DNA from: Prosopocoilus inquinatus
Lineage: Eukaryota > Arthropoda > Insecta > Coleoptera > Lucanidae
DNA: 64,000 nt
Direction of reading: 5' to 3'
Assembly: GCA_036172665.1 (NCBI GenBank)
Contig: CM069872.1
Location: forward strand, 49,586,101 to 49,650,100
Position numbers and translations under genes: made by a program. This document shows, piece by piece, positions 7,801 to 55,500 of this stretch (position 1 is its first letter; every line of letters begins with the position of its first letter). The notes under the pieces were generated by a model. That model was given only the letters and a program-made list of their open reading frames with translations, made no database searches and was not told where the DNA came from.

Positions 7801-10800
7801 TCCTGCCCATCCTACAAGGTGGCAAGAAAAGTTTTGCTGAACGAGCACTTTCCAAACAAGTGAACTGATCAGTATGGACCATGATTGGCTGGTTCAACGA
7901 ATTTAAATCCATCGGACTTTTTTTGTGGGGCACTGAAAACAATTGTTTATGCTAAGATAGTTGGAAAACAACTTTGCAAATGTTAAGAATGCTTACGAAG
8001 AATTTTTGCTGCGGGGCTGAAAAAACAGAGGGTTGCATTGTCGAATAAATTAATTGTAACTTTAATTTCTATTTTCAGAAAAACAGTATTTGATTTTTTT
8101 AAGGAAAATGAATGATTTTCGGACAAGCAAAAACATTTGAACATTTTTCGTTTTAAAATTGAAAATAATACAGTTTTTTCTCATTCTCATTTTCAGTCAA
8201 TCCATTTGGAGACCACTTTTGAAATGTTATTTTTATCTTTATTAAAACCGCAAGTGGAGAGAAATTATATACTAAAGAACTAAGTTTGTTTAAAACATAT
8301 TTTCTTGTAAACGATCTCAGTTTAAAAATCCACTCGATATTCCAATTTATAATCACCAAAATGTTTTGACCATCTCGTTTCTAAATTTGGCCATATCATC
8401 AAGAATATTACTAATTATTTGTATACAATTAGTAGGGAGAGACCATTTTTGAAGTTAAATGTTATTTATCAAAAATTATTTGTGCTTAACAATGTCACAA
8501 GATGTGATGATTATTACTCCCGCTCAAAGTAATTTCTGCGAATTGCAAATATTCCTTCACCCCTTTGCCTCCCACTCAATAGCGTTTCAAATGCATCGGA
8601 GCTTCGGAAGGAGAAAATAGTACAATCGGTGTAACAAGTGTCCAACACTAAGTGGACCGAATTCTTTTCCCTGGTGATGATAAATTTGTCAGTGAGAAAA
8701 ATGTTTGCAGTTTTATAATACGAGTAGGTACAGTCGTACTCCTCTAAAACGTACTTCCCGATGCAAACTTCACCCTTAAGACCCTTAAGGCTCACAAAAA
8801 TGTCAAATTGTAGCATAACTTTTAAGTTGCGCACGACTGGACCTGTTCGATGTAAAAAAAAATCTCAGGGTATGAATTCAAGTGGAATTTATTTATTTTT
8901 GAGAATAGGGGCGCCAATTATTGTTTTGCATGAGGGCACCAACTATGTTTCCTCTGGCCATGGGCGCTAGAGAATAATGTTGAAAGTTTTATGTTGAAGA
9001 TGACTTTAGATACTATTTTGCCAATAGTTTCTTGCCACGGTTATTTTGCTTGACTTTACAATGAAAAACCGACGATTTCCAAGCTATTTATAAGAACAAA
9101 TGACGTGAACAAATGTGACAAACGTGACAAATGAACAAGCGATATTTTTACAAGGAGAAAATCACGTCATTTGTTCTTATAAATAGCTTGGAAATCGTCG
9201 GTTTTTCATTGTAAAGTCAAAGTTATTTTGCTGTAAGAAACTATTTTGCCAATAGTTTCTTGCCACGGTTTTTTGCTTGACTTTACAATAAAAAACCGAC
9301 GATTTCCAAGCTATTTATAAGAACAAATGACGTGATTTTCTCCTTGTAAAAATATCGCTTGATAAAATGCACGCGTTACCTACTATACAATTTAGAGTGC
9401 GAAAATGATATTCTTGATTCTTCACCTCACTTTTCAGTCGAAACAAAAAGAACTTTAGCCACAGAAAACTTAATTTGATGACAGTACGTTCCGATCCTGC
9501 TTATATTCTTTGTAAATCCGATTTGTTTGTTTATATTACAATCATAGAGTCCTTTAAGCCGACAAGAAGCGGACGATACAATACGTAACGTGTACTTTCA
9601 GAGCGCAATTCTAAAGCCTTCTCGAAAGATTCGCGCGAATGAAAAATACATAAAACTCATATTACTACGTACTATTGATACAAAGCTTCGCGTAAGCGCA
9701 TTAAATCGGCGAAACTTCGCGCCATTTTGAACTAAGCACCGTCGAGCCGGCTAAAAAGCCATATACATACATACCGCGCCATTATTATTTGAATTCAATT
9801 AAAATTGCGTGAATAATTTGAAACACATGTTGTGGTGTTATAATTCAATTACGTATCTACATACCAAAAAAAAAAAAAACAACTTGTTAAAGGGAAATGA
9901 TTACATGTTGAACTAATAATGTCTGTTGCATGTTATTTGCATATTTAACAAGCTAATTGATAATTATAATTATATTGTACATTGTTGCGTCCTCGTAATT
10001 TTTTCTGCCTTGTGATATCCTTAGAAATCATTGTCTCCAGCGATTTTGTAGGGCAGATAAATTTAAAAGAAGGTGAAAAGACCGGGTCTTAATTAACTAG
10101 ATACTTTGATTATAATTACTATAAAAATTATTTTTATAGTATCATTACCATTTTTAAATACGAAAATCCACAACCAATAGATGGCTTCTTTAATAGGTAA
10201 AAAATAAGAACAGATAAAATAGCGACATCTTACTATCGCTTTTTGACCTGACATTGCAGTAGGATAGACAAATTGAAGCGGGATTTGCTCCTAATAAGTC
10301 CCCCATGCAAGGCGGCCATGCTTGCTGTCAAAGCATAATGAAAGCTTTTAGAAAAATTTTGTCCAAATCGTTTTTGATTGCAGTGAAAACCTCGAGCAGC
10401 CTCTGGACAGCTGTTTCAGCCCTGCTTGGGGCTTCTTCAGCAGAGACGTAGCTCGACATTCCCACTGCAGACCAAAAACGACTTGCCCAATTTATTCGCA
10501 ATTGCGATGTAAGAATGATGAACAGATAAAATAGCGACATCTTACTATCGCTTTTTGACCTGACATTGACATTGACATTGCAGTAGGATAGACAAATTGA
10601 AGCAATTCCCGCTTCAATTTGTCTATCCTACTGCAATGTCAGGTCAAAAAGCGATAGTAAGATGTCGCTATTTTATCTGTTCATCATTCTTACATCGCAA
10701 TTGCGAATAAATTGGGCAAGTCGTTTTTGGTCTGCAGTGGGAATGTCGAGCTACGTCTCTGCTGAAGAAGCCCCAAGCAGGGCTGAAACAGCTGTCCAGA

Positions 10801-13800
10801 GGCTGCTCGAGGTTTTCACTGCAATCAAAAACGATTTGCACAAAATTTTTGTAAAAAATAAGGTCACTGAATCACGTAAGCTACGCATACTAAGGTACAG
10901 CAATACGATGACAACGACAAGCGTCAAATAAAACCTTTTTTTTCCGCAGGACGTTCTTGGATGCCAAAGCTGAAAACTTCTTTTGATAGAAGAAATGTGA
11001 AGATCAACTTATGCTATTTTTAGTTTATCCAATGGCTCGGTCCATTTTGTATTTTCGAGTTTTGATTTATGAACTGTTAAATTTAAGACAGCACATGGGA
11101 AAAATGAGAATTGTAAAGATCTATTATATAAGGATCTAAAAAAAAAAAAACAGCACCAGTCAAATGAAATACTATTTCATGGGCAAATTTTGACATTTGG
11201 CAAACCGTTAAAAGGAACAATAATTCTCAAACTCACCTGAGATTGTTCTGATGAAAACTATTTTGATAAAATTCACGTATAATTTTGAATTTTATAGACT
11301 GTATACGATATCGACAAACCCTTTTTTTTTCGTCTGTCAGTGTGAATTGCCTTACCTCTGTCAGCAGAGCTAGCACGATTTAGCAATCAATCAATATTTT
11401 TTGTTAGTTTTATTATTTTGTGCAGGTTAATGCCAAAAGCGGAAATATTAGTTTTGGATATAACGTTTATGTATAACCTAGGGTAACCTAGATTTGATTG
11501 ACATTTAACATGTCGGAGAGAATTCGGAAGCACAACGTCAGATCCTACGGTCAGATCTGCCATTTCTCAAGCTCTGTATCATTTGCGAAATGGCATTATC
11601 AAATTCGACATCTCCACACAAACTGTCAGAAATCGATTGAAAGAAGAAGGAATGAATGCAAGGAGACCTGGAAAACATCCTCCATAACATCGTAGCTAAC
11701 AGTTTTTTCATCGGGTAAGAGAACGTAATGAAATGAAAAGGCCAAGAATAAGAGGGGGAATAGTTAATGTTGTGATTAGAATTGCAGGATTTTCCATTAT
11801 TTAAATTTCAATAAACATCTAATCTATAAAATATCCGATGACACCATGTTTTGTCTTTAAATGTCAACAACCCAAAGACCATTGAATTTAGGTAGAGTTG
11901 CGGCCTTTGAAAACTGATAGTCTTTGACAAACCTTATATGTTCTGGGGGTATAAATTGATCCTAAATCTGAAGTTTCTAAAAATCACTCAAATTACTCTT
12001 TGACAAATTGATGAAAACGATAGATGAAAGTTTGATTTACACATTATACTATTTCACATTCTTGAAGTTTATCTCAGTTCTCAGCGTACCAGGTTTCAAG
12101 ATCCGCCGTTGTACATAACATTATCTACTCTTAAAGGCGAGTCGAAATTAATTTTAAAATACAGTATGTTCCATTTACTAGGAAAAAAACACAACTTTGG
12201 CTTGGCACAACCGCATGGAACATCCTGTGTAAATTGTAACTAATTTTAAACCATGCATCTGTGTCATATGGAAGTAATGGCGAAACCAGCCTTTAAAAAT
12301 CTCCTTTAATAATCTATCTACCGAACATTGAGGGCTAGTTGTACCAAGGGAGTTCAAGGGAACATTCAATTGAACCAGGTTCAAAATAAACAAATTCGCA
12401 TAACATTTTAATGCAAGTAATGCATTTCTAAATAAAATTTGCGATTTTATTAACTTTGAACTTAGTTCAGTTGAGCGTCTCCTTGAACTCCCGTGGTGCA
12501 ACTGGCCCTCAGGGGTGCAAGCGTGGAGTCCGATCACTTCTTGGTGATGGCAAAATCAAAATGAACTGCAGGAAAAGAAAGAAAGCAAGTTTCAAGAAAT
12601 GAAATGTAGAAGAACTTGATAATGTGGAGATAAGGGGAAGGTTTGTGAAAAAAATTGAAAGAACACTGGATAAAACATTTTTGAGATTTATACGAAGATA
12701 AAAAAAGGAGAGTGAATAACGACGATGATATATTTGAAGTCAATGAGAAAGAATGAGAGAAAGAGAGAGAATGCTGTTGTAATTACCAAATATGTGCAGA
12801 ATTTTTAAAATACGGAGGTGAAAAACTACTTGAGGAAATTCAACACTTAGTACAGAGAATATGGAAGGAGAAAGAAATGCCAGAAGCAGAATGGAACACA
12901 ATATAGACACGCATATATCGTTCATCGACTTCAAGCAGGCATTTGATAATTCAAGATCTAACACACCAAAAAATTGTTAAAACTATTAGTTAAAATGACG
13001 CTAGAAGATACACAGGCAGCCGTAAAGATAAGACACAGTAAAAAGAGCATTTCCGAAATAAATGGGGGGTAAGGAAAGACGACGCCCCATCTGCATTATT
13101 ATTAATCACCTCTTTGGATCGTATAATAGCGCAAACAAAAGTCAACGGAACAACAATAAACAGTTTAGTGCAAATAGTTTCATACACAGATGATGTTGTA
13201 GCAATTGTAGTAAGAGATCTGAAGAGATTAGAAGAAACATTTAAAATAATAGAGGAAGAGGCAAGAAAAGGAAGTCGAGATCTAGAAATAAACGAAAGCA
13301 AAACTGAGTATATACTATTTAGGTACATTTGTGTAGAAGCAAGAAAACTGCCAGAATCTTGACAATTGAAAACTATAACTTCAAGGAAGACGAATCATTT
13401 AAATATCTCGGTGTCTTAAATAACAGAAGAAATGAAAAAAACTGACTTAAAATAAATAATCAACTTCTGAAAGAAAAAAGAATAACATGAAGATTTACAG
13501 AACAATCGTTAGACCAACGGAAATTATATGCAACGAAAAGGGTTAGATTGTCACAGAAGGAAGAACAACTAGAACAACTAAAAATATTTGAACGGAAGAC
13601 GGTAAGAAAATAATGGGTCCAAAAGAATCAATGAAGAAGAATTAAGACATGAAATTGAGAAGGTATTGGTAAGAACAATTGAAGCAAACAGGACACATTT
13701 TGAGGAGGAAACGAGAAGCACCGAGTAGAGTACTGGCCGAATGGACACCGGAACAAGCAAGAGCGAGACGGAAACCGAAAATTAAATGGAAGGAACAAGT

Positions 13801-14963: not shown

Positions 14964-15600
14964 TCCTTTCGTAGTTCCCAAAAAAAAAAACACTTCACGA
15001 GGATTCTCGGCGGAGCATGATCGCAACCGCACTCGGAAACGTCATCCTTCGGTTTTGACTATAAGTAAATATTAAATCTAAGCATAATGTGAATTGACCG
15101 TTTGGCGCGTGTTCGAGGGCGTTGCTTTGAGGGCGGGCCCGTTGTTGTCCAACCGATAGCTTCGATTTACACCCTCCACGGCCTTTAATCTCCTTAAGTA
15201 CCCAATATTGATAATTTGATACATATTAAATAACAATTAAATCCCAATAGTTGTATGTAAATTATAATTTGAACTATTATATGAGAAGATTACATTCTAT
15301 ATAATAAACAATGTATAGGCGTTCCAAAACAAACATTTAAATATTTATACAGTCGAAAACAAATTAAAAATCTCAATACACACGGTCCGCGAATTAATAA
15401 GATTTATATGATAAGCATAGGTAATGTTTTACGTGAATACAATCCGTTTGGAACACCCGGTATGTACTGAAATCAGAAAAATACGTGTCCGTCCTTTCGC
15501 CTTTCGCTTGATACTCCTGCTTGACATACATCTTGACATTTCGAAAATAATTTGGCAAATAGTTGGTTTCCAAACAACAACCCAATGGTCATCATAAATC
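14964..15600. promoter_or_regulatory. Upstream region of rough
   Basis: This holds the 5' UTR and likely promoter of rough (transcribed leftward). GC content rises at 15000-15180, including a GGGCGGGCCCG stretch. No TATA box or Inr can be placed with confidence. The remainder is AT-rich. Confidence 0.35.
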
Positions 15601-17590: not shown

Positions 17591-17749
17591 TCATCTCTAC
17601 TTAACACCCAACATCCTGAAACTTTGGAATACGAAAGCGATCGAGGGTCGCTTACCTTTCCTTGATATCTTAGTAAGCCGCCTCCCGAATGGTAGATTAG
17701 GTCACTGTCTAACGAATACCCTGTGCGCAAACCGACTAGGTTTTGAGTA

Positions 17750-22020: not shown

Positions 22021-22054
22021 TCCAGAGACGAACGGTCCAAACAGCGCGAAGCGC

Positions 22055-25370: not shown

Positions 25371-25432
25371 TTACTTACTACTGCAATGTTAGGTCAAAAA
25401 GCGATAGTAAGATGTCGCTATTTTATATGTTC
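25371..25432 (+). mobile_element. Solo 62-bp end of the retrozyme family with target-site duplication
   Basis: This is only the terminal segment (CTGCAATGTTAGGTCAAAAA and the GCGATAGTAAGATGTCGC hairpin) ending TATATGTTC. It is flanked by AATAATAAGAAC at 25359-25370 and 25433-25444. It has no ribozyme. Confidence 0.75.
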
Positions 25433-25444
25433 AATAATAAGAAC

Positions 25445-26019: not shown

Positions 26020-32231
<6,212 letters not shown>

Positions 32232-33246: not shown

Positions 33247-36200
33247 ATGAATAAACCCGAATTAGAAGGTACCGCACACTTATTAGACGAGTTAGACAGT
33301 AAGTATTGTTCTGTGAAATGCCTTTAAAAAAAATAAGTAATCCCATCTTTGCTGCAGAAAAATTAATGGTTTTACTAAGGGATGGAAGGACTTTGATAGG
33401 GTACTTGAGGAGCGTCGATCAATTCGCAAATCTCGTTCTGCACCGCACCATCGAAAGAATTCACGTCGGAAAAGATTATGGCGATATACCAAGGGGTGTG
33501 TTTATAGTTAGAGGTGAAAATGTTGTGCTGTTGGGAGAAATAGTAAGTTAGTAATTACTTAAGTTCAAATTCAGCAATAAAACTCGTCCTTTGCTACTAA
33601 ATTCTTTAATGAGGTGTTTGCAACACACAGTTCACTTCATTTTTAAAGTTAAAACTTAAACAGATAAAATAGCGACATCTTACTATCGCTTTTTGACCTG
33701 ACATTGCAGTAGGGTAGACAAATTGAAGCGGGATTTGCTCCTAATAAGTTCCCCATGCAAGGCGGCCATGCTTGCTGTCAAGGATAATGAAAATTTTAGA
33801 AAAATTTTGTGCAAATCGTTTTTGATTGCAGCGAGAACCTCGAGCAGCCTCTGGACAGCTGTTTCAGCCCTGCTTGGGGCTTCTTCAGCAGAGACGTAGC
33901 TCGACATTCCCGCTGCAAACAAAAACGACTTGCCCAATTTATTCGCATTTGCGATGTAAGAGTGATGAACAGATAAAATAGCGACATCTTACTATCGCTT
34001 TTTGACCTGACATTGCAGTAGGGTAGACAAATTGAAGCGGGATTTGCTCCTAATAAGTTCCCCATGCAAGGCGGCCATGCTTGCTGTCAAGGATAATGAA
34101 AATTTTAGAAAAATTTTGTGCAAATCGTTTTTGATTGCAGCGAGAACCTCGAGCAGCCTCTGGACAGCTGTTTCAGCCCTGCTTGGGGCTTCTTCAGCAG
34201 AGACGTAGCTCGACATTCCCGCTGCAAACAAAAACGACTTGCCCAATTTATTCGTACATTACTCTTACATCGCAAATGCGAATAAATTGGGCAAGTCGTT
34301 TTTGTTTGCAGCGGGAATGTCGAGCTACGTCTCTGCTGAAGAAGCCCCAAGCAGGGCTGAAACAGCTGTCCAGAGGCTGCTCGAGGTTCTCGCTGCAATC
34401 AAAAACGATTTGCACAAAATTTTTCTAAAATTTTCATTATCCTTGACAGCAAGCATGGCCGCCTTGCATGGGGAACTTATTAGGAGCAAATCCCGCTTCA
34501 ATTTGTCTACCCTACTGCAATGTCAGGTCAAAAAGCGATAGTAAGATGTCGCTATTTTATCTGTTCATCACTCTTACATCGCAAATGCGAATAAATTGGG
34601 CAAGTCGTTTTTGTTTGCAGCGGGAATGTCGAGCTACGTCTCTGCTGAAGAAGCCCCAAGCAGGGCTGAAACAGCTGTCCAGAGGCTGCTCGAGGTTCTC
34701 GCTGCAATCAAAAACGATTTGCACAAAATTTTTTTAAAACTTAAATGTGAACGGAAATATCAAACTAGAAAATGAGAAGTCATGAATCTAATTTAGCTAA
34801 ATTTACAAGTTTATTATGTTCATATAATATACCTCGCCTTTAATAAAAAAACTACCATAGAAAAGGTATGTTCAAAGCGTTCAGTAGTAAGCAAAAGTAA
34901 CTCATATTTTGAGTTAGGTATTTTTTGTTTTTAAGTTTATTAGGTGCTTTCTTTCACTCACAAAATCGTGATCCAAACGTGTTTTGATTCAAAAACAGAC
35001 AATGGGCGTGTTCAGCGGACGCACAGCTGCTGAGTTGCTTACTCAACAGTGGCTTGTGATTGGCTATTACCTTAATGTGAGCCAATCATAAACGATTGCT
35101 GAGTAAGCAACTCAGCCGCTGAGTGTCCCTCAACGCGCCCATTCTTTTCTTTGAATCTCTCAGTTTTTAAAACTGGTTTGGATTGAATTATGATTTTTTA
35201 CAAATGAACTGTCAATCAAAAATTCAAGTCAGATGTTTTGTTGCAACAACTACGAAGATCAGGTCCAAACTATTTGATACACGATTCAAACTTTACAGTA
35301 TCTGCTTATTTGCTTTTCCATGAAATCGACAAAATTTTTGTTGCCTCTGCAATAGAAAAAAAAAAACTGACAGGTCAGCTTGGTCAGTGGAGTACGTGAG
35401 CTACTTGCTTGCTGTAGACGCCACAAAGGGGACTGAAACAGTTGTCCAAGGAATGCTAGGGTACACCACTGCAATCCAAACTGACTTGCAACTAATTTAT
35501 TGTTAATTTTATTAATAATTTAATCAACGACATCCTACGATCGTTTTTTAACCTGACATTGCATTAGGATTGACCAATTGAAGCCAGTTTGCTACATAAT
35601 AAGTCATCCCATGCAAGGCGGTCATGCTTGCTGTCAAAGCTTCTACTGATAAAGCCCTAAATACGTCTGAAATAGCTGTACAGAGGCTGCACTGCAATCA
35701 GAAACGATTTGCAATAATTTTTGTTTGTTAATTTTATTAATTGAAAGTTATGTTAATTTCAATTGTTTCATTAATTTGGTGACGAAGGTCTTTGTGAAAT
35801 AGTCTGTCTTTTGTACGTTTTCTGGAATCTTCCATTCACGGTCCCTTTGTTATTAATTTAATTCTCAAGACCTCACAGTTTATAGAGCGCTTTTAAAAAT
35901 TCAAAATTAAATTAAACGTTTTCGGCACCTCTGTGACCACTAGGGGCAGTTGCACCCCCCCCCCCCCATTACTTGACATTTTCAATAAAGAAGATAAAGT
36001 TTATGTGTGATGCTGTACTGTTTCATTTACTTTATTTTGGAATTTAATTATGTAATAAAAAAAACTTGTCTGATTCTTCAATGTTTTGATTTTTTGAGGA
36101 AATTCATCGTGAGCTCGATTGTCTTTTGTTTTCTTTTTTCCTTTTTTTAGAACGCCTGTAAAGCACGTTTACACGAAAGGTTATTTTTCGCATTTTTGTC

Positions 36201-37978: not shown

Positions 37979-40900
37979 TCAAAAAGACGTTTCAAATACA
38001 ATAGGATGACCGTTTTCATCAAACTGCTTGGGTTTCAGCACTAGTTCCTTCTCGTCACCGTAATCTTGTACGTCACATTTCTCGGAAAAATCGGACTGGT
38101 TGCCGTTTAAATAGTGCAAAAGCGAGGCGTTCATCTTACTATCGCTCAGCCCTTTAAGATCGTCAGAACTGTAATCATCCGTGCGACTCGAGAAACTCAG
38201 ATCCACCGGCGATGCGGTCATAATACTGCGACTCCAGAGGTATTCCCTGAACGTGCTGGTTAGAAAATCATTCGCGGCGGCGCCAGCTTCTTCCGTTTCA
38301 TCGCAGCAGGCTGTGGCTTCGTTGCACAGCAATAAATTATTTTCGCTTTTTGATTTTTTTAAGTGCGGTTTAGACGGCACGTCGGAAGTTTCCACCGTTT
38401 CGACAATCAAATCAGACTTTTCCTCTATCAGACTATCCATTAAAACTGTTTGGTTGCTTAGCTTTGGTAAATTGTTTATGTTTGTACCTGAGACAACTAA
38501 TACTGGCTTACGACTTCTCGGCGTCATCATTGTTTCCTACAACACACAAACGGACAATTGCGGTGCTATCGCGTAATAGATGCTTACGTGTTAATTAAAA
38601 CCGTAGTTTCCATGATATCTGCATTATTTAAAAATTAATTATTACAGAAATAAAATATGTGGAACATTTTTTTACGTATGTTTGCCACTTGGTTCAATGC
38701 ATTCTGTTTGAAATCATCCAACTGCTCGAAAGACCGTAACGAGCATGCGCGTTAAACAAATTAATGTACATACGCAGTAAATAAAACGACACACGATTTG
38801 TTTACTGCGCATGCGCACGCTCGTGCAAGTGCAGTTTTTTGAGCAGTTGAAACAAAGCTATTATTATTATTATTATTATTTGAAGCACTTGAAGTTAACT
38901 CTCTTTAACTTTTCACTTACGTTGACAACAAACAATAAAGCGAACAGTACCAAATAACAAACCTGCATAGCACGACACATATTTTGCGTCGATTTAGTAA
39001 TTGGCGACATAGATCTGCGTTCCTGCCCGTTGGGACTAAAAATACTAGCCGAAAGGGTATGTACGGAAATGCAAGCGGGTGTGCTCGTCAGGTATGCACT
39101 GGGCATTCCGATGCTTATGTTGGGACTGAACACGTTAGTATTTTCCGTTTCGTTCTGTACCAACGCCTTGCACTTGCAATCCTCTGAACTGGACTCGGAC
39201 TTTTTGAACTTTTTTATGAACAGTTCGTCGTTACTTACGTCACCGTTGCTGGTGCTGCAACTAGTGCAAAACAAAATTCTCTTCGCCGTCACGCTTTGTT
39301 GCGGTGTCTGCAATAGTTGGAAAAAGCACAAGCACACATGTATAAGCCGCACAGTAAGTTAGGGTTAACACAAAAGCTACGTGCAAGGCAAGTTAAAGAT
39401 ATTAACGCATACATTAGTTAAGGGAATCACGTCATTAACACAATTATTTGAAATTGTGATTGTTCATAATACGATTTATTTTATTTTTCATTGTTTACGT
39501 TGATTCATTTCGTTATCAAAAAAATACAAAAAATTCATTTAATTGCCCTCGAATCTAAATTTTGCGGAAAAAATTGGCTTAAAGTTGAACAAAATTGAAG
39601 AGTAGGCCGAGAAGTGTAAATTTGGTTCTATTTGTCGATTGTCTATTTAACAAAAATAAAAATAAAAAATTCTGTCGCCTACTTACTATAAACTCACCTA
39701 CCGTCATCAAATAATTCCAAACTATTTCCGCCTATTCTAACAAATAGAGATCGGAATCACATATTTTGACGTCATCAGTGTTTTATTTTTATTTTGTAAT
39801 GCTTCTCGGAATAATTCTGCGGGGAGAGGAGCGCCCTCCGATTGGTTTGATTTTCATAATGGGGCAGCACAGGAACATCAAATCATCAAGCTTCAGCTTC
39901 AGTTTTGTAGAAAAAAAATTATATTTTGTTGTTAAAATTGTATTATCCAGAATTCACCTTTATTAATAATAATAAATTAAATTCAACCCATTGAAGACTT
40001 GTAAAAAAAAACATGATTAAAAAATAGCGAGATTATCAAATACAAAAGTAACGTTTTGTTTTTCAATTTATTTATTTTTTTGTTTTTTTTCAATTTATTT
40101 ATTGTCTTGTTTTCTTTTTTCAATTTTTTTGTTTGGTTTTTCGAACATAATAATCTTTTTTTTTATCGATTATCGAGAATCTCCGCAGCAGTTTTGAATT
40201 ATCAATCAATTTACCCCATCTTTGCTTATTTTCTATTTCTTTTCTTAAATTGTCTCTTTTCTTTCTTAAATACCTATACACTTATTACTACAGCTGTTTG
40301 TCGTAAAATGTACGATCGTCATTTGTTTTTATTTCTCTCCTTTTTTCGTTGGAGTTTTCCTCTTTTTTTTTAAATTTCTATTCCAGTTACACTTTTCCAA
40401 ACGACGAAAATGTTATTCTTTTTTGTTCTTACTTTATTTGTCATATATTTTTTTTCAAAAGTTAATAATTAAAAACATTATACAGTTTTCAAATCTTGCA
40501 ATCGTCTTTTGTTTTTGTTGATTTTGTATTACGATTGTGTTTTGTCTTTCTTTAATAATTAATTAATAATTAATAATCGTCGTGAATAGTTTAAACGATC
40601 GCTTTTTGGACTTGACTCTCGAGCTACGCTTCTACTGATGAAGCCCCAAATAGGGCTGAAACAGTTGTAGAGAGGCTACTCGAGGGATTCACCGCAATCA
40701 GAAACGATTTGCAACAAAATTTCGTAATAATTCCTTAGGAATTCCTTAGTCCTTAGGAATTTTTATTTTATTTTTTCTCCACCGTTAAAAAGTACTCGAT
40801 GATTTATTTTCATAAATTAAATAATTATAATTTCTTCAGATTGTGTTTCTCGTTTGTCAAACATATTTTCACTTTCTTCTTGTTTCTGTTTGTGTATCTT

Positions 40901-43900
40901 TTGAGTTTTATCGCTCACTGAATGTAGAAGGAAGAGAAATTTCATTTTAGTTTTCAAGATCACACACGATTCTGAAGACTGAAGATGAAATCGTTCATAG
41001 TACCAACTACTAAATATAATCATACGGTTGGCAGCATGCCAAACGCCACCTAATGATGACGTCAAAATATGTGATTCCGATTGCTGCTGATAAATCACTT
41101 TCACACTATGAAAGAACTAAGAAAGTCGTCTGTATTTTTTTGATATTTCCCGATTTTTTGAATTCAACTGTAAATGTGTATCGGGCAGTTTATGTTCATC
41201 GTGACCGTTGTTATGTTTATGCTACCATCCAAACACAAATCTATGCAATGCTACGAAATATTTCAAAGAAAGGCAATTTATGTGACATATTTCACTTGAA
41301 ACGTTTCGGCTTTACAACACTATCCTAAACCCGAACAACATTAAATGAAATTTAAGGCATAAATACCCGTAATCAACTACAAGTCAACATTAAAACAAAC
41401 CAGACTTAACCAATGGCGGATTCACAAATAATCAAATCATGTTCTCTAATATCATTGGCGTGAAGCGCCCAAAACAACATTAAAAACGCTTAGAGTTAAA
41501 TTCGCCATAAGACCGTAGCGCAATCAATCCCACCTGATTACCCTTCATCGGAGATTGTTCGTAGTCTCTCGCGCCGGACGTATGATGAAGACGTCCACAC
41601 CACAGCAGCTGCAATAGCGTCCTCGTAAAACGACATCGTAAAACGACGAAAAAGCGCCGTTCTTCCCAAACCAAGTCGTCAAAAGTGAATCAAAACAAGA
41701 AGCTCGCAGCCAAAAACGAGAAACTTGTACCCCAAATCAAACTGGTGTCCACAATAAGAATAAGAAGTCGTGCCCAAAATGAAAACTTATAACCAAAGCA
41801 AGAAACGTGTGCCCAAAATTAAAAATTGTTTGCAAAACAAGAAGTTTGTAACCAAAATGAAAAGCTTGTGGAGGAAGAGATCTCTTAACGAGCTTAATGA
41901 TCCTCCACCACCAAGTCAGACCCTACGAAACGTCGGGCGAACCTTTCACAAAGGTCCTCAGCAATAACCAAAGTGTGGACCGTCCGTCAGGACACTGAGA
42001 TGCTGCACGAATCAAAACCAACTTGACATAAGCAGGGACCAACGTGTAACTTTAAATCTGACGTAAGAGAACACCAATAACATCGAAAGCCAAGGACGAG
42101 ACTAATTGAGGTATTTAGGATCAAAACCTGAAATCTCCAAAGAGAATGCAACCTCTATAATATTTGTTTTGGTTATTATAAAAGTACATACTATTGATAC
42201 ATGGAATGGATTATGTTTTTTTAGAAAACATTGGTTAATGCTATCCACCGATCATTTTGGCGTACTTATACGGCAGATAGAAATAAAATAGTATTTTTAT
42301 GCAATTTGCAAGAACAATGAAGAGTGGAGATCCTATACGCCGGCTTCAATGAAAGTAACCGTCTAAATGATAGCTCGCAGAACCCTGTGATTCACATTAA
42401 CTGATCTAATAAAAATATAGAAAAACAGACGGCGGCGCCGGAAACTTTATGAGTATCTGAACGCAAGGTTGGTAAAACTGATATTGCATCTAGCAGGTTG
42501 CCTCGTTCCCATTTAATATGTAGTTTGAAATTTCCACCCCGCAAAAGTAACTCGTGACGTCACACGAAACTTCTGTCCGTCACAGTGAAGTAATTAGATT
42601 AAAAAAATTAAAAAAATTAAAAATGGAATCAATTCTATGGTCCTATTGATCAAATAACGAAAAAATCTCATTAATATGCCCAATGCAATGTATCACGTGA
42701 CGTGACGCAACGAGATACGCACCCTCTGTCCCCTCCGCTGATCAAGGCAACCTTCTAATACGTCCAGCTCTACTAACCTTGTCTGAACGCATGAAATAAA
42801 AATATCGCCACAAATCTCACGAGCCAGAAAAAAAAGATACGCTTGCAATCGTTTCAAGAGATGATGCAATCTTATGAAAAAAATAGAATCTCCGTACGAT
42901 ATTGTTTGTTTAAAACCACAAAGGAGTCCCGAGCCGAGGCCTCGAGAAGTTTGCACTAAATTCATTGCCGGAGTATTTCGAAACGAAAGCAAAATTAATC
43001 GTATAAAATAAAACGCGAAGAAGCGTGAGATTATTTGCAATTCGCCTAATTAGTCATTCCACTCCAGCGATGATGAAGCGATCATAAAAAAACTGCCTTT
43101 AATCGCAATTATGAACAGGCTTAACAGTAATACTAGAAAGAAAAATCACTTCATAATACAAGGCTTACTTGGCTAAGAATATTTTAGATCCATTTTTTTT
43201 TTTTTTTTTGGAACATGTAATGCTCGGAAAACTTTGAACATCTTTTTTTATTCAAAGTCTAAACTACAACATTGTAATCTTCTGTAAAATTCTTTACGAT
43301 CATCAAAAAAAATGACGTGCTTCCCCTCAACTTTTAGCGTAAGCAAGTGTTAAATTAATTTTAGTAAGATTACATTGTTTATTACTAAGTATAATAAATT
43401 CGAGACTTACATTTAACAATTCCTCACTCGTTGATCGACGCTGGGAAAATCCGGCTTTCTTAACACGTCGGACCAAACCTTTTTGGAAAATGCGCTTCTT
43501 TATGGACTCTCCGAAGCTCTTATTCTTTGGCATGCTGCTCTTTATCTCTTGCAAAGGTACACCGTGTCCGTTTTCTTTATTGAATTGCTTGACGAGCTTT
43601 TGCTTCTTTGACGATTCCGGTAGGCTCTGAATGTAAGCGTAAAGCTGCGCAAGCGCTGTTTCCGTTGGGTTCGCCTCGTTTTCTTTCGCCGTCCTTTCGT
43701 GATCCACAAAACTGAACACAGTGTGAGCTGCGAAATTATCACTAACCGACTCGTCAAAGTATCTCTGAGGAGATAGTTTTCTCCTCTCTCGTTCTGTAAA
43801 ATACGCTCTGATGTCGACGGCCAATTTGGTAGGAATTAAAAATAACTCCGACGATTTTTTTATCATGTACGACAGGATTCCCGATAGGGTTTGACAGTTC

Positions 43901-46900
43901 ACGTGAAGCACTTCGGGAGCTAACTTTCTCGGACAGAGCAAATGTGGTGTGTACAGCGTTGCCAGACTATCGGCTGACATTTTGTTCCGACTTTCGTAAG
44001 ATGCAGTCAGGTGCAGTAAATTTAGAACTTCTTTGAGTAACGCCCTGTTTTCCACGGGCAATAGTAAAAGAAGCAATTGAAGTGATTCTATCAGCCTTGA
44101 TTCTTGACGATTTTTTTCCCCAGATCCGTATAATTCTGAAAATAAAAATAGACTCATCGTGAACTATTCTCTATCGAGTATGTTAAACTTGAATAGATAA
44201 AACAGCGACACCCTACGATCGCTTTTTGATCTAACATTGCTGCTGGACGGTTTCACTGACGAAGCTATAAATCTAAAGCGAAACGTTGAGTGTGTTCCCA
44301 TCATATTTCTGTCCGATTCGAAATTAAAAAAACTTTGTACTTGCAATCAAAAACGATTTGCAACAAAATTTGTTAAAATTAAAGATCTGTTATGGTAACA
44401 ACCAATCATGAAGTTTTATGATTGGCTGTTACCATAGCAACAGGCCTTTAAATTGAACTTACCAATCATAAAGCTTTAGAAAAATTTTTGTGCAAATCGT
44501 TTTTGATTGCAGTGAGAACCTCGAGCAGCCTCTGGACAGCTGTTTCAGCCCTGCTTGGGGCTTCTTCAGCAGAAACGTAGCTCGACATTCCCACTGCAGA
44601 CCAAAAACGACTTGCCCAATTTATTCGCAAATGCGATGTAAGAATGATGAACATATAAAATAGCGACATCTTACTATCGCTTTTGCAATGTTAGGTCAAA
44701 AAGCGATAGTAAGATGTCGCTATTTTATATGTTCATAAAGCTTTAGGATTGGTTGTTACCATAGCAACAGGCCTTAAAATTTAACGTACTCGATACAAAA
44801 CAGCCTCCATTTACCCAAAAATTGGGTTGGGTTGAGGTAAATTCAGAATATCGCCAAATAATAATAATAGGAAAATAAGACCAATAAAATTAGATTAAAT
44901 CCAACGCAAATGAAAACAAAGACGGACAACAAAATAAAACAAGAGATGACGAACTGTGTATAAAATAAAGATAGAGGCGAATAATAAAAGGTAAAGAAGT
45001 CAATAAAAGAAATAAGGAAAGATCGTTGAAATTAAATAATAAAAATTAAAAAAAAAATTATGAAAGGGGAGGGTGGCGCAAGCGAAAAACTAAAAGTGAA
45101 CGAGAGTGTGAAACGCAAAATATTTAATAAAATGAAGGCACAGAAGATGATCAACAAATAAACAAAAATAGGAACAATAAAAATAAAAAATTCAAACGCA
45201 AAAATGAAAACGACGAAAACAATGACACGGAAATAATTAATAAAATAAAACTAATATGGTAAAATTAGATTAAATGCAAATGAAAACGAAAGACGAACAA
45301 CTAAACACACCAAAACAAATGACGGAACAACAAAACAAGAAAAAAAAAAACGATTAATATGTAATAAATACAAAAACAAAAAAGAAAAGGAAAACGAAAA
45401 TGAACTGCAGAGCGAAACAAAAAATAATCAACAAAATAAAACAAAAGACGATCAATAAATTTAAACAAAATCAAAATGTATATTTAAAAAAGAACACGAA
45501 GTGAGGAAAACAGCGGCGAACGTTGGAACGAAACAAAAAACACACAGTAAAACAAAAGGGGACCGACAAAGAAAATAGAAATTCGCCGATAAAATTGAAA
45601 TAGAAGTAAAAAAAATGACACTGATCGTCTTTTGTTTTATTTCGTTGATTATTTTTTTGTTTCGCTTTTGTTTTTCGTTTGTATTACCGACGGGAGATCG
45701 ATGAAAACAAAAAGAAAAACAGTCAATAATTACAAAAAGGAAAAGAAAATCGATTAAATTAAATAAAAATCAGAATAAACGAAGCACAAAAAGTGAATAG
45801 TTAGAATGGCACCGAAAATAATCAACAAATTACATAAAACAAAAGGCGATCAGTGAAGTTAAACAAAAACGAAGTGTTTATTTTAAAAAAACGGCAAACG
45901 CAAATAAGGAAAAAAAGTCGAACGTTGGTATAAAGAAAGAGATAAACAATAAAACAAAAGAAGACCGACAAAGAAAATGAAAATCCATCGATAAAATTGA
46001 AATAAAAGTCAAAATAAATGACACCGATCGTCTTTTGTTTTATTTCGTTGATTATTTTTTGTTTGAATCAACAAAATGAAACAAAAGGCGATCAGTGAAG
46101 TTAAATAAAGACGAAATATTTATTTAAAAAAAACGGCGACGCAATTAAAGAAAAAAAAAAATGCCGAACGTTGGTATAAAACAAAGGGAGACCAACAAAG
46201 AAAATGAAACTCGATTGATGAAATTGAAATTAAAGTAAAAAAAAAAATGATACCGATCGTCTTTTGTTTTATTTCGTTGATTATTTTTTGTTTCGCTCTG
46301 TTGTTCGCTTTTGTTTTTCGTTTGCATTACCGACGGGGGATCAAATAAAAAGAAAAAAAAACAGTCAATAAATATAAGAAAAGAAAATCGATCAAATAAA
46401 ATAATAATCTAAATAAAACAAAACGCGATCAGTGAAGTTAAATAAAGACGAAATATTTATTTTAAAAAAACGGCAAATACAAATAAGGTTGGTATAAAAC
46501 AAAAGAGGACTAACAAAGAAAATGAAAATTGATCGAAAAAAAAGATAGATTTAGCAAAATGACGGCGATTGCCTTTTGTTTCGTGTGGTGCGTGATATAA
46601 CTTTATTTATAAAAGGAAACCGTCTTTTTTATTTCGTTATTTTTTTGTTTGACTCTGCAATTCTTTTTTTATTTTTGGTTTGCATCATCGATAGAAAGGG
46701 GATCGATGAAATTAAACAAAAACAAAAGACGATTGATATAGAGTCAATGAAATTAAAAAAAAAACAAAAGAATTATAAAAGGAAGAGGCAAATACAGATG
46801 AGAAAAAAAAACTCAAAAGATTTATAAGAGAAACTCTTTTGTTTTATTGCGTTGATTATTTCTTTGTTTCATTTTGCGATTCGCTTTTTGTTTTTGGTTT

Positions 46901-50050: not shown

Positions 50051-50054
50051 ATTT

Positions 50055-50290
50055 CTTAGGACTTCCAAATGCCACAGTTTTTTTTTGTGTTAGCAATTTT
50101 CAAACACCCTGTGTAAGTAAGTAGGAGTGCAAATACTTCCAGATGCCACAGTTTTTCTTTTGTACTAGCAAATTTCAAACACCCTGTATAAGTAAGTATG
50201 AGTGCAAAGACTTCCAGATGCCACAGTTTTTTTTTGTACTAGCAATTTTCAAACACCCTGTATAAGTAAGTAGGAGTGCAAAGGAGGTAA
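50055..50290. repeat. Minisatellite, three units of about 71-80 bp
   Basis: CTTCCAGATGCCACAGTTTT and TTTCAAACACCCTGTATAAG recur at about 50066, 50138 and 50211, each followed by a GTAAGTA run and GGAGTGCAAA. Confidence 0.85.
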
Positions 50291-52206
50291 AAGTCTAGAA
50301 AGAGCAAAGCAAACCTAAAATTAATCGGAAATTATAATATAGAATTTTCCGCTCGCTGCATCGATGTGCCCTGACATACACCATGGCCACCATGCAGCCT
50401 TTTTTCAATGAAATATTTAGTAAAGTTATATAAACGTGCCAGGATATTTTATGCATTAAAATATATTAACTGCCCTCTTAGTTTATTCTATCGATAAAGT
50501 TGGCCATATCCTGTATTATTAGTGCTGCTATCTTCAATCGAATAGTGCAATTTATAGGCTAATCGTGGTGTAATATTACAGATTCCTGCAGTCTTACAGA
50601 GAGCTGTTGCAATGGATGTCCTACAATGTCCTCTAATGGCTCAAAGATGGCAGCACTACCAGTGCATGAATAAATTAATTATATTTATTGTCATTTTAAC
50701 AGTTTTCTGAAGTAAAATCATTCCGTAGCGCTCCATAAATAACGGTTATTCGATTAGCGCTAGCGAACTTTTATTTTTCCAGTTTTTCAGTGAGAAAAAG
50801 CTATCTTTTCGGGACGGCAATTTAGGGGCTGATATCTCGGAAAGGGGGTGAGCTACAGAGGAACGGAGCCCGGTTTTGAATACGCCTCGTCGAGATCTAC
50901 GTAGGTGAATTTTTTCTCGATTTTAGGAGAAAGAAATATTTTCGGACCGAAAAAGTAGCAAGCCTATAGTCCATGAAAATTTAAGGATTTCTGCGGAAAA
51001 TAGATTTCGGCGAAAAAAAATGCTTTGATAGAGCTTGGGCAGACGAATCGAATGGTGCAAACCGCAAGTCTCTAGCTCGCGCCGTTTTCGAGAAAAAAAT
51101 TTAATTTTTCTGTGATCGACTCACATTAAATTTTTTTTTTTCGAGAATGGCTCTAGCTAGAGACTTGCGGTTTGCAGCATTCGATTCGTCTGCTCAAGCT
51201 CTATGAGAGAGATTTTTTTCGCGGTAATCTATTTTTCGTAGATATCCTGAAATTTTCATGGACTACTTACTTACTTTTTGGGCGAGAAAATATTTTTTTC
51301 TCTTAAAATCGCGAAAAAATTCACCCAGGTGGATCTCGACGAGCCGCATTCAAAACCGGATTCCGTTCCTCTATAGCTCACCCCCTTTCCGAGATATCCA
51401 CCCCTAAAATGCCGTCGTAGAAAAACGGTTTTTCTCAATGAAAAACTGTAAATGTAAAAGTTCGCTAGCCCTAATCGAATAATCGTTATTTATGGGGTTG
51501 TGCGGAATGATTTTAATTAATAAAATAGTTAATATAATAATAAATGTGTTTAATTTATTCATATATTCGTAGTGCTGCCATCTCTGATTCATCTAATGGA
51601 CTCCGTAGGTTATCCGAAGAAACAGGTCTCTGTAATACTACAGAAATCTATAAGTTTTACACACCGATTAACTTATAAAACGCACTACTCGCTCGAAGAT
51701 GGCAGCACCACCAATGCATGAATAAATTTAATTTATCGTTATTTTAACTGAACATATAAAATAGCGACATCTTACTATCGCTTTTTGACCTAACATTGCA
51801 GTAGGATAGACAAATTGAAGCGGGATTTGCTCCTAATGAGTCCCCCATGCAAGGCGGCCATGCTTGCTGTCAAAGCATAATGAAAGATTTTAGAAAAATT
51901 TTGTGCAAATCGTTTTTGATTGCAAGCAGGGCTGAAACAGCTGTCCAGAGGCTGCTCGAGGTTCTCACTGCAATCAAAAACGATTTGCACAAAATTTTTC
52001 TAAAATCTTTCATTATGCTTTGACAGCAAGCATGGCCGCCTTGCATGGGGGACTCATTAGGAGCAAATCCCGCTTCAATTTGTCTATCCTACTGCAATGT
52101 TAGGTCAAAAAGCGATAGTAAGATGTCGCTATTTTATATGTTCATCATTCTTACATCGCATTTGCGAATAAATTGGGCAAGTCGTTTTTGGTCTGCAGTG
52201 GGAATG

Positions 52207-52271
52207 TCGAGCTACGTTTCTGCTGAAGAAGCCCCAAGCAGGGCTGAAACAGCTGTCCAGAGGCTGCTCGA
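52207..52271 (+). ncRNA. Type I hammerhead ribozyme (copy 9)
   Basis: Intact core. The stem I variant UUCUG/CAGAG carries one wobble. Cleavage is predicted at 52257/52258. Confidence 0.88.
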
Positions 52272-52518
52272 GGTTCTCACTGCAATCAAAATCGATTTGC
52301 ACAAAATTTTTCTAAAATCTTTCATTATGCTTTGACAGCAAGCATGGCCGCCTTGCATGGGGGACTCATTAGGAGCAAATCCCGCTTCAATTTGTCTATC
52401 CTACTGCAATGTTAGGTCAAAAAGCGATAGTAAGATGTCGCTATTTTATATGTTCATCATTCTTACATCGCATTTGCGAATAAATTGGGCAAGTCGTTTT
52501 TGGTCTGCAGTGGGAATG

Positions 52519-52583
52519 TCGAGCTACGTTTCTGCTGAAGAAGCCCCAAGCAGGGCTGAAACAGCTGTCCAGAGGCTGCTCGA
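52519..52583 (+). ncRNA. Type I hammerhead ribozyme (copy 10)
   Basis: Intact core. Cleavage is predicted at 52569/52570, 312 nt from copy 9. Confidence 0.88.
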
Positions 52584-55500
52584 GGTTCTCACTGCAATCA
52601 AAAACGATTTGCACAAAATTTTTCTAAAAGTTATTTTAACTGTTTTATGCATTAAAACTGTCGCCTCTCACTGAATAAATAGCGATTATTCGATTGGAGC
52701 GAAACAGTTTTTACTATTGCAGTTTTCCATTGAGAAAATATTGTTTTTCCGCGATGGCATTTTAGGGGTCGATATCTCGGAAAGGGGGTGAGCTACAGAA
52801 GAACGGAGCCCGGTTTCGGATGCTCCTCGTCGAGCTTTAGGTAGGTGATTTTTTTGGTGATTTTAAGAGAAAGGATATTTTGGCCGAAAAAGCAATAAAA
52901 CCCATTAAAATTTGGGGACTTCTAAGAAAAACTGATCGAGACGAGAAAATCGTTTTTATAGAGCTTCAGCAGACGAATCGAATGGTGCAAACTGCAAGTC
53001 TCTGGCTCGCGCCATTTTCGAGAAAAAAATAGAATTTTATTGTCATCCACTAACATTAAAAATTTTTTTTTCTCGAAAACGGCGCTAACTAGAGACTTGT
53101 GGTTTGCAGTTTTCGATTCTTCTGCTCAAGCTCTATCAGACGGATTTTTTTCGCCGCGATCTCTTTTTCGTAGAAATCCTAAAATTTTCATGGACTATTA
53201 TAACCTTTCTACTTTTTCGGTGGAAAAATATTTTTTTCTCCTAAAATCGCGAAAAAATTCACGTAACTGGAGCTCGACGAGGCGCATCCAAAACCGGGCT
53301 CCGTTCCTCTGTAGCTCACCCCATTTCCGAGATATCGGCCCCTAAAGGGCCGTCGCAGTAAAATAGTTTTTTCTCAGTGAAAAATTTAAAAAATAATAAT
53401 CCGTCGGCCCCAGTCGAATAATAGTTATTTATAGAGCCAAACGGTATGGTTCTGTTTTATAAAACAGTTAAAATAACGATAAATTAAATTTATTCATGCA
53501 TTGGTGGTGCTGCCATCTTCGAGCGAGTAGTGCGATTTATAGGTTAATCGTTTTGTAGAATTTACAGATACCTGTAGTTTTACAGAGACCTGTTTCTTCT
53601 GATAACCTATGGAGTTCATTAGGAGAATCAAAGATGGCAGCACTACGAATACATGAATAAAATACATTCATTTATTATTATATTAACTGTTTTATTAATT
53701 AAAATCGTTCCGCATCGTCCCATAAATAACGATTATTCGATTAGGGCTAGCGAGCTTTTACTTTTCCAGTTTTTCATTGAGAAAAACCGTTTTTCTACGA
53801 CAGCATTTTAGTGGCCGATATCTTGGAAAGAGGGTGAGCTACAGAGGAACGGAGACCGGTTTTGAATGCGCCTCGTCGAGTTCTACGTGGGTGAATTTTT
53901 TCGCGATTTTAGGAGAAAGAAATATATTTTCACCGAAAAAGTAGTAAGGCTATATATAGTCCATGAAAATTTCAGAAAAATAGATTACCGGGAAAAAAAT
54001 CTCTGTCATAGAGCTTGAGCAGACGAATCGAATGGCGCAAACCGCAAGTCTCTAGCTAGAGCAATTTTCGAGAAATAAAATTCTTAAATATGTATCGATG
54101 ACAGAGAAATTAAATTTTTTTCTCGAAAACGGGACGAGCTAGAGACTTGCGGCTTGCACCATTCGATTCGTCTGCTCAAGCTCTATGAGGGCGATTTTTT
54201 TGGCGCCAATCTATTTTTCGTAGATATACTGAAATTTTCATGGACTATAGCCTTACTACTTTTTGGCCCAAAAAATATTTCTTTCTCCTAAAATCGCGAA
54301 AAAATTCACGTAACTGAAGCTCGACGAGGCGCATTCAAAACCGGGCTTCGTTCCTCTGTAGCTCACCAGATTTCTGAGATATCGGCCCCGAAAGGGCCGT
54401 CATAGAAAAACATTGTTTTCTAAGTGAAAAACTGAAAATGTAAATATCCGCTGGCGCCAATCGAATAATTTTTATTTATTGAGTGATAGGGCATGGTTTT
54501 AATGAATAAAACAGCTAAAATAACAATCAAAGCAATAAATATAATTAATTAATTCATTTATTACTGGTGCTGCCATCTTCGAGCGCATAGTGCAACTTAC
54601 AGGTCCTTGTTGGTGAAGAATTACAGATTCCTGCATAATTACAGAGACCTGTTTTCATGGATAACCTGTAGGTTCCACTGATGGCTCGAAGATGGCAGCA
54701 CTAGTAATATAAGAATGAATTAATTATATTTATTGCTCTGATTGTTATTTTAGCTGTTTCATTCATTATAATCATGCCCTATCACTCAATAAATTACGAT
54801 TATTCGATTGGCGCTAGCTGATTTTTAGTTTTCCGGTTTTTCAGTGAGAAAGAAATGTATTTCTGCGACCGCCCTTTCGGGGCCGATATCTCGGAAAGGG
54901 GGTGAGCTACAGAGTAACGGAGCCCGGTTTTGAATGCGCCTCGCCGAGATCTACGTAGGTGAATTTTTTCGCGATTTTAGGAGAAAAAGATATTTTCTGG
55001 GCCAAAAAGTAGTAAGGCAATGAAAATTTCAGGATATTTGCGAAAAATAGATTGGCGCGAAAAAATCTTTCTCATACAGCTTGAGCAGACGAATCGAAAG
55101 CTGCAAACCGCAAGTCTCTAGCTCGCGCCGTTTCCGAGAAAATAAAATTTGAAAATAGTGCAAAAAAATTAAATAAGAAAATTTAGATAATTTAGAAGTC
55201 AGAAAAAATCGGCGGGAATTTTTCTGCTCCTGATATATCATATTTGAGACCTCCTCGCGTTTATGTGATCCTGGTAGCAAGATTCAAAATTTACAGAAAA
55301 TCTTGCTGTCCCGGAAAATTGTGACAAAGTTTGCTGCGATTTTTGAATCTTGTTACCAGGATCACATAAACGCGAGGAGGTGTCGAACAGAGGGTTTCCG
55401 GAACAGAAAAGTTCCCGCCAATTTTTATTGCAGGCTAAATTTTCTGTAATTTTTGAATCTTGCTACCAGGATTACATAAACGCGAGGAGGTGTCGAATGT

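Follow-up and report, generated by a model that had tools for sequence, protein, structure and literature searches.

Inverted, two-ended insertions of a hammerhead-bearing repeat family in Prosopocoilus inquinatus, with a resident Penelope-like element as candidate helper

The enzyme and the route that return animal ribozyme circles to DNA are still a matter of proposal, as discussed in PMC7229834 and PMC7761336, and Penelope-like elements have been termed a strong candidate helper (Cervera 2020, PMC7229834). In the in vitro system reported by Frangieh 2024 (PMC11167929), the Penelope-like protein, once purified, cleaves AT-rich DNA on both strands, extends each of them and begins at two internal positions of the RNA; the ribozyme is dispensable for insertion. 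The genome of Prosopocoilus inquinatus holds both candidate partners, each young and in many copies, so that its insertions can be taken as outcomes of the reaction itself. Taken in this way, they yield precise predictions: there should be two start sites, each used on its own strand, the template should be circular, and the points of joining should be scattered. Our analysis indicates that the repeat family in question is probably a young retroelement that is non-autonomous and belongs with the metazoan (non-LTR) retrozymes, with a circle as template and a Penelope-like helper that primes on both strands. The class of metazoan retrozymes is already known; the new part is the insertion signature.

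The ribozyme-bearing unit in the window

The window, i.e. the whole stretch of 64,000 nucleotides that was analysed, contains nine near-identical ribozymes with the shared core CTGAAGA-AGCCC-(6 nt)-GGGCT-GAAA, and a tenth, diverged one with its core at 40635 (+). All nine keep every invariant base of the type I hammerhead (CUGANGA, GAAA and NUH, with three helices open at stem I), in agreement with a preliminary description of this DNA, which had claimed multi-copy complete ribozymes and was also right about the 5-bp stem II, the loopless stem III ACAG/CUGU and the GUC site. The cores and one example are as follows.

10414 (-), 10762 (+), 33862 (-), 34171 (-), 34336 (+), 34645 (+), 44543 (-), 52223 (+), 52535 (+): the nine near-identical hammerhead cores
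34322..34388 (+): example hammerhead, with positions taken from alignment columns
34322-34325/34379-34382 (+): distal stem I of the example
34331-34335/34371-34375 (+): proximal stem I
34343-34347/34354-34358 (+): stem II
34362-34369 (+): stem III, with predicted cleavage after 34370

The loose pattern CTGANGAN{5,25}GAAA matches the window 22 times, where 4.6 matches are expected, and 0 of 100 shuffles reach that count. Across the sampled insertions the core is intact in 109 of 113 ribozyme-bearing units, and unit-private substitutions amount to ~0.1%, which upholds the earlier view of a young family of the metazoan-retrozyme kind. An Rfam scan, proposed as a check in the preliminary description, formally went against it, as nothing in the window lay at or above the cut-off and Hammerhead_1 was absent from the whole-window results at E<=5; on a 121-base stretch, however, Hammerhead_1 (RF00163) still ranked first among the families, with 25.8 bits (cut-off 34) and E=1.1e-4. 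As this family remains the top match of the motif, we attribute the sub-threshold score to the Rfam model. Elsewhere in the same genome, seven of the eight places listed with Rfam hammerhead matches exceed the cut-off. The bulk of the whole-window matches at E<=5 are microRNA families, which match inverted repeats and were set aside as palindrome artefacts.

The unit is 309 bp long, or 312 bp in one subfamily, with a G+C content of 44%. Its tandem period, as reported before, is 309 bp at 33659-34254 (100% matches) and 312 bp at 51923-52629 (99% matches). The earlier reading as tandem repeats holds insofar as tandem units exist, but the window copies are really inverted head-to-head pairs, and position 52642, where the earlier description ends the family, is the end of a 13-bp target duplication. 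That description lacks the inverted arms with their two fixed outer ends, as well as the target duplications and the scatter of the inner junctions. Stops occur at least twice per turn in all frames, yet frames of 110-114 aa traverse the unit in the window; the ORF with RT and GIY-YIG domains that marks Penelope-like elements is not found in the retrozyme, whose 309-bp unit is too short for it. In the following list, A-arms and B-arms are named after the sites of the unit at which they begin, site A near U170 and site B near U309, ~135 nt apart on the unit.

10197..10862: insertion 1, target duplication GTAAAAAATAAG at 10197-10208 and 10851-10862; B-arm (minus) from 10209, A-arm (plus) to 10850; hammerheads 10414-10440 (-) and 10762-10788 (+)
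33649..34745: insertion 2, target duplication TTAAAACTTAAA at 33649-33660 and 34734-34745, overlapping the element ends; B-arm of 1.9 units (minus), A-arm of 1.6 units (plus); hammerheads 33862 (-), 34171 (-), 34336 (+) and 34645 (+)
44467..44746: insertion 3, target duplication CATAAAGCTTTAG at 44467-44479 and 44734-44746; left A-arm (minus, from 44475), right B-arm to 44733; hammerhead 44543-44569 (-)
51738..52642: insertion 4 (312-bp subfamily), target duplication GTTATTTTAACTG at 51738-51750 and 52630-52642; B-arm of 174 nt without a whole ribozyme, A-arm of 2.3 units; hammerheads 52223-52249 (+) and 52535-52561 (+)
40619..40722 (+): diverged single copy, 84% to the unit, core 40635-40661 plus A-end; no B-arm seen
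44192..44380: old short copy, B-arm 44192-44240 (-), A-end 44342-44380 (+)
35388..35740: two old relatives, a family-2 ribozyme/A-end at ~35388-35517 and an old B/A copy at 35528-35722, the latter with the 17-bp repeat TTGTTAATTTTATTAAT
25378..25431 (+): B-end fragment, nothing else

Insertion anatomy across the genome

Forty-three clusters of the same genome were dissected (the listed cluster C1:7027986 was left out), and 39 of them have the B/A architecture, where one arm runs from site B and the inverted arm from site A. The other four comprise two old or partial clusters, one lacking its A-end, and one composite that contains a B/A insertion. Arms in inverted orientation, a tail confined to one of them and a target duplication, the features of a Penelope-type insertion, were likewise found in 39/43 clusters. 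Terminal repeats of 11-17 bp occur in 36 of the 43, and among 839 mispaired flanks used as control only 3.3% attain even a 9 bp repeat; these repeats have an A+T content of 85%, against 68% in the flanks. An A-run at the end was seen in one copy alone (L036).

The inner junctions, in turn, are scattered, and the arms meet either through short overlaps or with additional bases. The inner arm ends are uniform around the unit (Rayleigh p 0.73 and 0.37) and do not pile up at the ribozyme cut, with 2/60 lying within 3 nt of it against 1.4 expected. Both arms end within 30 nt of each other in 3/30 insertions, where shuffles give 1.3, and within 3 nt in 0/30; in window insertion 1 the arm stops are at most ~10 nt apart. 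The length that a linear ribozyme-cut monomer could supply is exceeded by 26 of 30 B-arms and by all 30 A-arms, and the longest single arm reaches 3.9 units. Folding of the retrozyme as a circle does not support a stem between sites A and B (pair-probability sums 0.02 and 0.05), and the A-B stretch folded by itself does close at the two sites.

As for the template, 70 substitutions from 36 simple clusters could be scored in both arms; 17 are present in all covering units, 52 in a single unit and 1 in some, and the loci L010 and L033 (one diverged unit) hold the partial one together with 30 of the single-unit ones. For example, 222T>C occurs in 8/8 units, 118A>G in 5/5 and 115C>T in 4/4. Eleven of the all-unit substitutions are markers of the 312-bp subfamily, from two window insertions of that subfamily, and outside those two the argument for one template consists of six substitutions, one each in six insertions; of these, 147A>G recurs in two of the six, and window insertion 4 has 222T>C as well. 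Altogether the anatomy agrees with a single monomer, most simply a circular RNA, having been copied onto each of the two target strands, and it independently favours an endless monomeric template. Alike units within one insertion could also arise from gene conversion or from RNA-to-RNA copying of the monomer.

A candidate helper and the rival explanations

The resident Penelope-like element encodes RT and GIY-YIG domains in an open frame of up to 788 aa, carries a minimal hammerhead, and is similarly young to the retrozyme. Its two outer ends are 39 nt apart, at sites that flank a stem-loop, and all 22 scored pairs have the two-end anatomy of one outer end per arm, with repeats of 11-16 bp; in four pairs variants are common to both arms. 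Since the retrozyme has this same two-end anatomy, the young resident element is likely to be its helper. A side-by-side reading of the ends and ribozymes of the two elements found no clear sequence likeness, ten related loci had no recognisable Penelope-like ORF next to them, and nine loci searched by tblastn with two Penelope-like proteins gave nothing convincing (best E 0.07). Moreover, no Penelope-like element with retrozyme-like ends was seen among frames of at least 80 aa in seven hammerhead loci inspected by eye, at 12 GIY-YIG loci checked for ribozyme cores and unit matches, or at the 3 inspected of 344 places with the end motif of a related family. The Penelope link made in the preliminary description is supported by the insertion anatomy and not by sequence.

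The same element, primed on both strands in the same way, might have copied a long linear multimer from an existing array instead of a circle. Multi-unit arrays do exist, as the arm of 3.9 units illustrates, unprocessed RNA is named as the dominant substrate of the Penelope-like in vitro system (PMC11167929), and three of the 30 retrozyme insertions have arm stops at most 30 nt apart. A linear multimer, however, should transmit single-unit changes, against which stand the counts of 17, 52 and 1 for substitutions in all, one and some units; a common 5' stop should be frequent, as in 11/22 Penelope-like pairs, whereas the 3/30 of the retrozyme is near chance; and the 5' end of the ribozyme lacks a pile-up. 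We consider the linear multimer rather unlikely. Fold-back self-priming, as proposed for rotifer Penelope elements (PMC3846280), in which priming on a single strand is followed by folding back of the cDNA, which then serves as its own template and yields inverted arms, would account for the mirrored arms of 11 of the 22 Penelope-like pairs (3 palindromes and 8 within 30 nt). But it predicts mirror images, while the inner ends of the retrozyme are mostly unrelated and its arms unequal in length (0/30 within 3 nt, 3/30 within 30 nt), and its outer ends differ, A on one arm and B on the other. Mirrored arms are rarer in the retrozyme than in the Penelope-like element, not absent, and this contrast of 11/22 with 3/30 within one genome is also relevant to the earlier idea of self-priming in Penelope elements. 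In the case of the retrozyme, self-priming is disfavoured and very improbable.

LINEs also generate inverted arms and target duplications of variable length, features that resemble those of the retrozyme, and LINE-type machinery with twin priming could be supposed to move the same element. Twin priming leaves one outer end fixed and the other random, whereas both outer ends are fixed here (39/43); a terminal A-run is confined to the single copy L036, and two fixed ends are the pattern of the Penelope-like element of this very genome, so that a LINE origin appears very improbable. An ordinary satellite or a DNA-level inverted duplication with a chance hammerhead-like motif would have in its favour the tandem period and the inverted repeats as such, and the window Rfam score below the cut-off. 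It is scarcely credible in view of copies that are dispersed over many contigs and have target duplications, and of ribozyme pairs that are kept and covary in 11 relatives, where 85.5% of cells are paired and 1/500 shuffles reached the covariation score (the Rfam model had a part in choosing the rows).

With a circular template and a Penelope-like helper, the route may be pictured as follows. The unit RNA, cut as a dimer by its own hammerheads, would close into a circle; the Penelope-like RT/GIY-YIG protein would cleave both strands of an AT-rich site; both DNA 3' ends would prime synthesis, one strand from site A and the other from site B; each cDNA would travel 0.2-3.9 units around the same RNA and end anywhere; and finally the two cDNA ends would be joined. 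On this proposal, which we put forward tentatively and judge about evenly balanced, every insertion would record a single small RNA circle that was reverse-transcribed directly, with the two broken strands of the target as primers, a dedicated start site for each of them, and the Penelope-like protein acting in trans; the process would be a rolling, two-ended target-primed reverse transcription.

Comparison with known systems

Small dimeric hammerheads of Penelope-like elements, reportedly treated by Lunse in 2017, have a very short or loopless stem III from which cleavage as a dimer is expected. The stem III of the retrozyme is loopless as well, whereas its stem I is long, against 3 bp in the resident Penelope-like element. 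Plant LTR retrozymes (PMC4918200) are likewise non-autonomous, with a hammerhead and a circular RNA intermediate, which for the present element is inferred, and they differ in their type III hammerhead, their LTRs and their 4-bp target duplication (per PMC7229834).

Closer are the metazoan non-LTR retrozymes as described in PMC7229834, with tandem units of ~170-400 nt (here 309/312), a type I hammerhead, a G+C content below 50% (here 44%), target duplications of more than 4 bp (here 11-17 bp) and a Penelope-like element within the same genome. Circular RNA has been demonstrated for them and is predicted for the present retrozyme. They are described there as tandem repeats, in a text without the word 'inverted', whereas the copies here stand head to head with two fixed ends.

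From Penelope-like elements the retrozyme differs by having no RT/EN ORF, by inner ends that are mostly unmatched, and by the spacing of its start sites, which are ~135 nt apart on the unit, compared with 39 nt for those of the resident element. With those described, Poseidon of Anolis (PMC11167929) and Penelope of Adineta vaga (PMC3846280, target duplications of 8-10 bp), it shares inverted arms, a tail on one arm, target duplications, AT-rich targets and type I hammerheads, and moreover, on the reading preferred here, the cutting and extension of both target strands and two internal RNA starts.

The retrozyme unit and its ribozyme

The CTGANGA-stem II-GAAA cores of the preliminary description are present in the window in nine near-identical ribozymes, to which a tenth, diverged one at window 40635 is added. 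In the Rfam check that it proposed, no match in the window exceeds the cut-off, but Hammerhead_1 is the top family on 34300-34420, where it scores 25.8 bits and the cut-off is 34. The genome (649.6 Mb, 173 contigs) has eight places listed by this model, all but one of them above the cut-off. One of the eight, L003, is a diverged member of the retrozyme family whose ribozyme is probably inactive because position 17 is G. When 11 ribozymes from the window and the Rfam-listed loci were aligned, 85.5% of the cells were paired as compared with 28.9-49.2% with the partners slid, and the covariation score was matched by 1 of 500 shuffles; since some rows were picked through the Rfam model, pairing and covariation give support to the ribozyme, not proof.

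The retrozyme unit U is 309 bp long with U1 set at CATCACTC, CUGANGA begins at U80, and the ribozyme cut falls after U114. The predicted fold of U is far more stable than shuffles (z -7.9 and -8.0) and extends stem I to more than 30 pairs; cleavage by the hammerhead would be dimeric. With 40 of 530 candidates scored, U has at least 175 DNA matches in its own genome, most of those listed being 97-100% identical, and 109 of 113 ribozyme-bearing units in the sampled insertions keep the core, which bears out the young multi-copy family claimed at the outset. Frames of 110-114 aa cross the unit and the ribozyme (window 10587-10931, 34209-34541 and 52336-52674). The unit lengths of 309 and 312 are both divisible by three, and in the 309-bp unit no frame has fewer than two stops per turn.

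Several other repeats share the window:

27613-27833: (TC)110 microsatellite
20833-21995: 22-bp minisatellite in several blocks
58892-60699: 71-bp tandem array

Moreover, retrozyme insertion 4 sits inside a repeat group at 50509-57162, spaced by about 1-1.6 kb in both orientations, 64-90% alike and with inverted arms up to 600 nt. Long inverted repeats at 9050-9360, where Rfam scores are those of unrelated microRNA precursors under their cut-offs, are probably a hairpin-forming or MITE-like element. Two minus-strand open frames, with a RhoGAP domain (43330-44163) and a protein phosphatase 1 inhibitor domain (28521-29078), are exons of host genes, the RhoGAP one having retrozyme copies nearby at 40.6 and 44.5 kb. 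The domain scan of three other window frames gave no domain.

Insertions with two fixed ends

The anatomy was scored in 43 distinct clusters from the window and the fetched loci, one cluster compiled from the genome DNA search being left out. In 39 of them the outer end of one arm is site B and that of the other, inverted arm is site A, with the RNA-3' sides of both facing outward. Site B falls at U309 in 32 of the 36 clusters with an end repeat of at least 11 bp, at U307-308 in three and, in one old copy, at U295; site A falls at U167-176 in 35 and, in one copy with an A-run, at U185. The four exceptions comprise L033:2715 and L043:2332, which are old or partial, L045, whose A-end is lost, and a composite at window 44192, which can be split into a B/A insertion with a duplication of 13 bp and an old copy. 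End repeats of 11-17 bp are found in 36 of the 43 clusters, as against repeats of at least 9 bp in 3.3% of 839 mispaired flanks, and their A+T content is 85% compared with 68% in the flanks.

The inner junctions, in contrast to these fixed ends, are spread across the unit in the 30 simple clusters: the arms overlap by 1-11 nt in 17, are flush in three, and are separated in ten by 2-151 extra nt unaligned to U, some of which are short unit sequence. Arm length ranges from 52 to 1220 nt (0.2-3.9 units). Insertions with identical flanks occur at C11:24332032-24332984 and C13:1112688-1113640, and likewise at L005 and L006; such pairs would be either segmental duplications or unmerged haplotypes. 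A related family that is older and carries a hammerhead of its own is marked by the end motif TGCAATCGAAACTNACTTGCAACTAATT, with 344 places in the genome; loci L001, L002, L004, L007 and L092-L094 belong to it. Its likeness to the retrozyme, in the seven loci compared, runs between the ribozyme and the A-end over about 75-107 bp.

The template of an insertion

Units of both arms allowed 70 substitutions to be scored across the 36 simple two-arm clusters. Of these, 17 occur in all covering units, one in some and 52 in one unit. The partial substitution and 30 of the single-unit ones are confined to L010 and L033, each with one clearly diverged unit; we interpret this as the element having inserted into an older copy. 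Eight insertions supply the 17 all-unit substitutions. Six of them contribute one apiece, namely 222T>C (8 of 8 units), 118A>G (5 of 5), 115C>T (4 of 4), 151G>A (3 of 3) and, in two separate insertions, 147A>G (3 of 3 each time). The other 11, from window insertions 1 and 4, are markers of the 312-bp subfamily and not independent; 222T>C is present in insertion 4 too. In addition, all covering units of L050, L052 and L053 carry 302T>C, which lies outside the 70 owing to an 8-nt margin. Substitutions held by all units of both arms show, at the level of sequence, that these units, made on opposite target strands, derive from one monomer. A linear multimer as template would instead be expected to hand on single-unit changes.

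As for the form of this monomer, a linear ribozyme-cut RNA would start at U115, and 2 of the 60 arms have their inner end 3 nt or less from that start (1.4 expected). The inner ends are uniform (Rayleigh p 0.73 for B-arms and 0.37 for A-arms), and a linear monomer would be too short for 26 of 30 B-arms and for every one of the 30 A-arms. The two arms stop within 3 nt of each other in none of 30 insertions and within 30 nt, turns counted, in three (L009, L034, L040); 1.3 are expected from shuffled arms, and three are reached by 15% of shuffles. Beyond the 30, arms are unmatched in L043, L047, L049 and L058, and those of window insertion 1 stop at U239 and U229. An RNA circle would offer no 5' end for cDNA to stop at, and a circular template would most simply account for the uniform ends, the over-long arms and the rare co-stopping, the last being a matter of degree as evidence.

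A candidate helper and known systems

The GIY-YIG model finds at least 150 places in the genome (150 of 2232 candidates scored), many as minus-plus pairs; the longest open frame among those listed has 788 aa. The frame of L066, carrying RT and GIY-YIG domains, belongs to a Penelope-like element. The hammerhead in the pLTR-like region of this element is minimal: stem I has 3 bp and stem III no loop. Twenty-three pairs chosen for short spacing were inspected and 22 scored, L087 being dropped as it is without the core. Each of the 22 has one arm that stops after CTCACTATTT, and the end of its partner lies about 39 nt beyond, on the GTGATTA side; the end repeats are 11-16 bp. Among 15 pairs, both-arm variants are seen in L072, L073 and L076, and a both-arm indel in L081. 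Divergence since insertion is alike in the two elements, with 29 unit-private substitutions in 29,641 bases for the retrozyme (33 clusters) and 6 differences in 12,000 bases for the Penelope-like element (the 15 pairs). Since it shares with the retrozyme the two-fixed-ends anatomy, the end repeats and a young age, this resident element is the best candidate for the helper. Against this, however, no likeness was seen between the end sequences of the two, and no Penelope-like ORF was found beside ten related loci (seven by eye, nine by tblastn).

Mirrored arms are far commoner in the Penelope-like element than in the retrozyme: three of 22 pairs are palindromic and eight more have arms stopping within 30 nt, thus 11 of 22 are mirrored or nearly so (L059-L091, the comparison in L059 being disturbed by an indel). 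There the template may be linear with a shared 5' end, or a fold-back step may operate; we take the contrast as pointing to an endless retrozyme template.

The retrozyme family is real and young, and its class, the metazoan retrozymes with a hammerhead, was rightly named beforehand and is already known. As for the insertion signature, in titles, abstracts and passages of the searched retrozyme and Penelope literature (including PMC7761336, PMC8490949, PMC12910113 and PMC11722881) no description was found of retrozyme insertions with a two-fixed-end inverted anatomy, and the word 'inverted' is absent from the text of PMC7229834. Passages on rotifer Penelope elements describe inverted pLTRs, a tail on one pLTR and 8-10 bp TSDs, and suggest self-priming (PMC3846280). 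Working with a purified Penelope-like protein, Frangieh 2024 (PMC11167929) report that it cuts both strands and extends them, favours AT-rich DNA and has two adjacent internal RNA start sites; insertion in vitro persisted with ribozyme mutants. Passages of PMC7229834, where metazoan retrozymes were defined and their circles demonstrated, name Penelope-like elements as a strong candidate helper of retrozymes.
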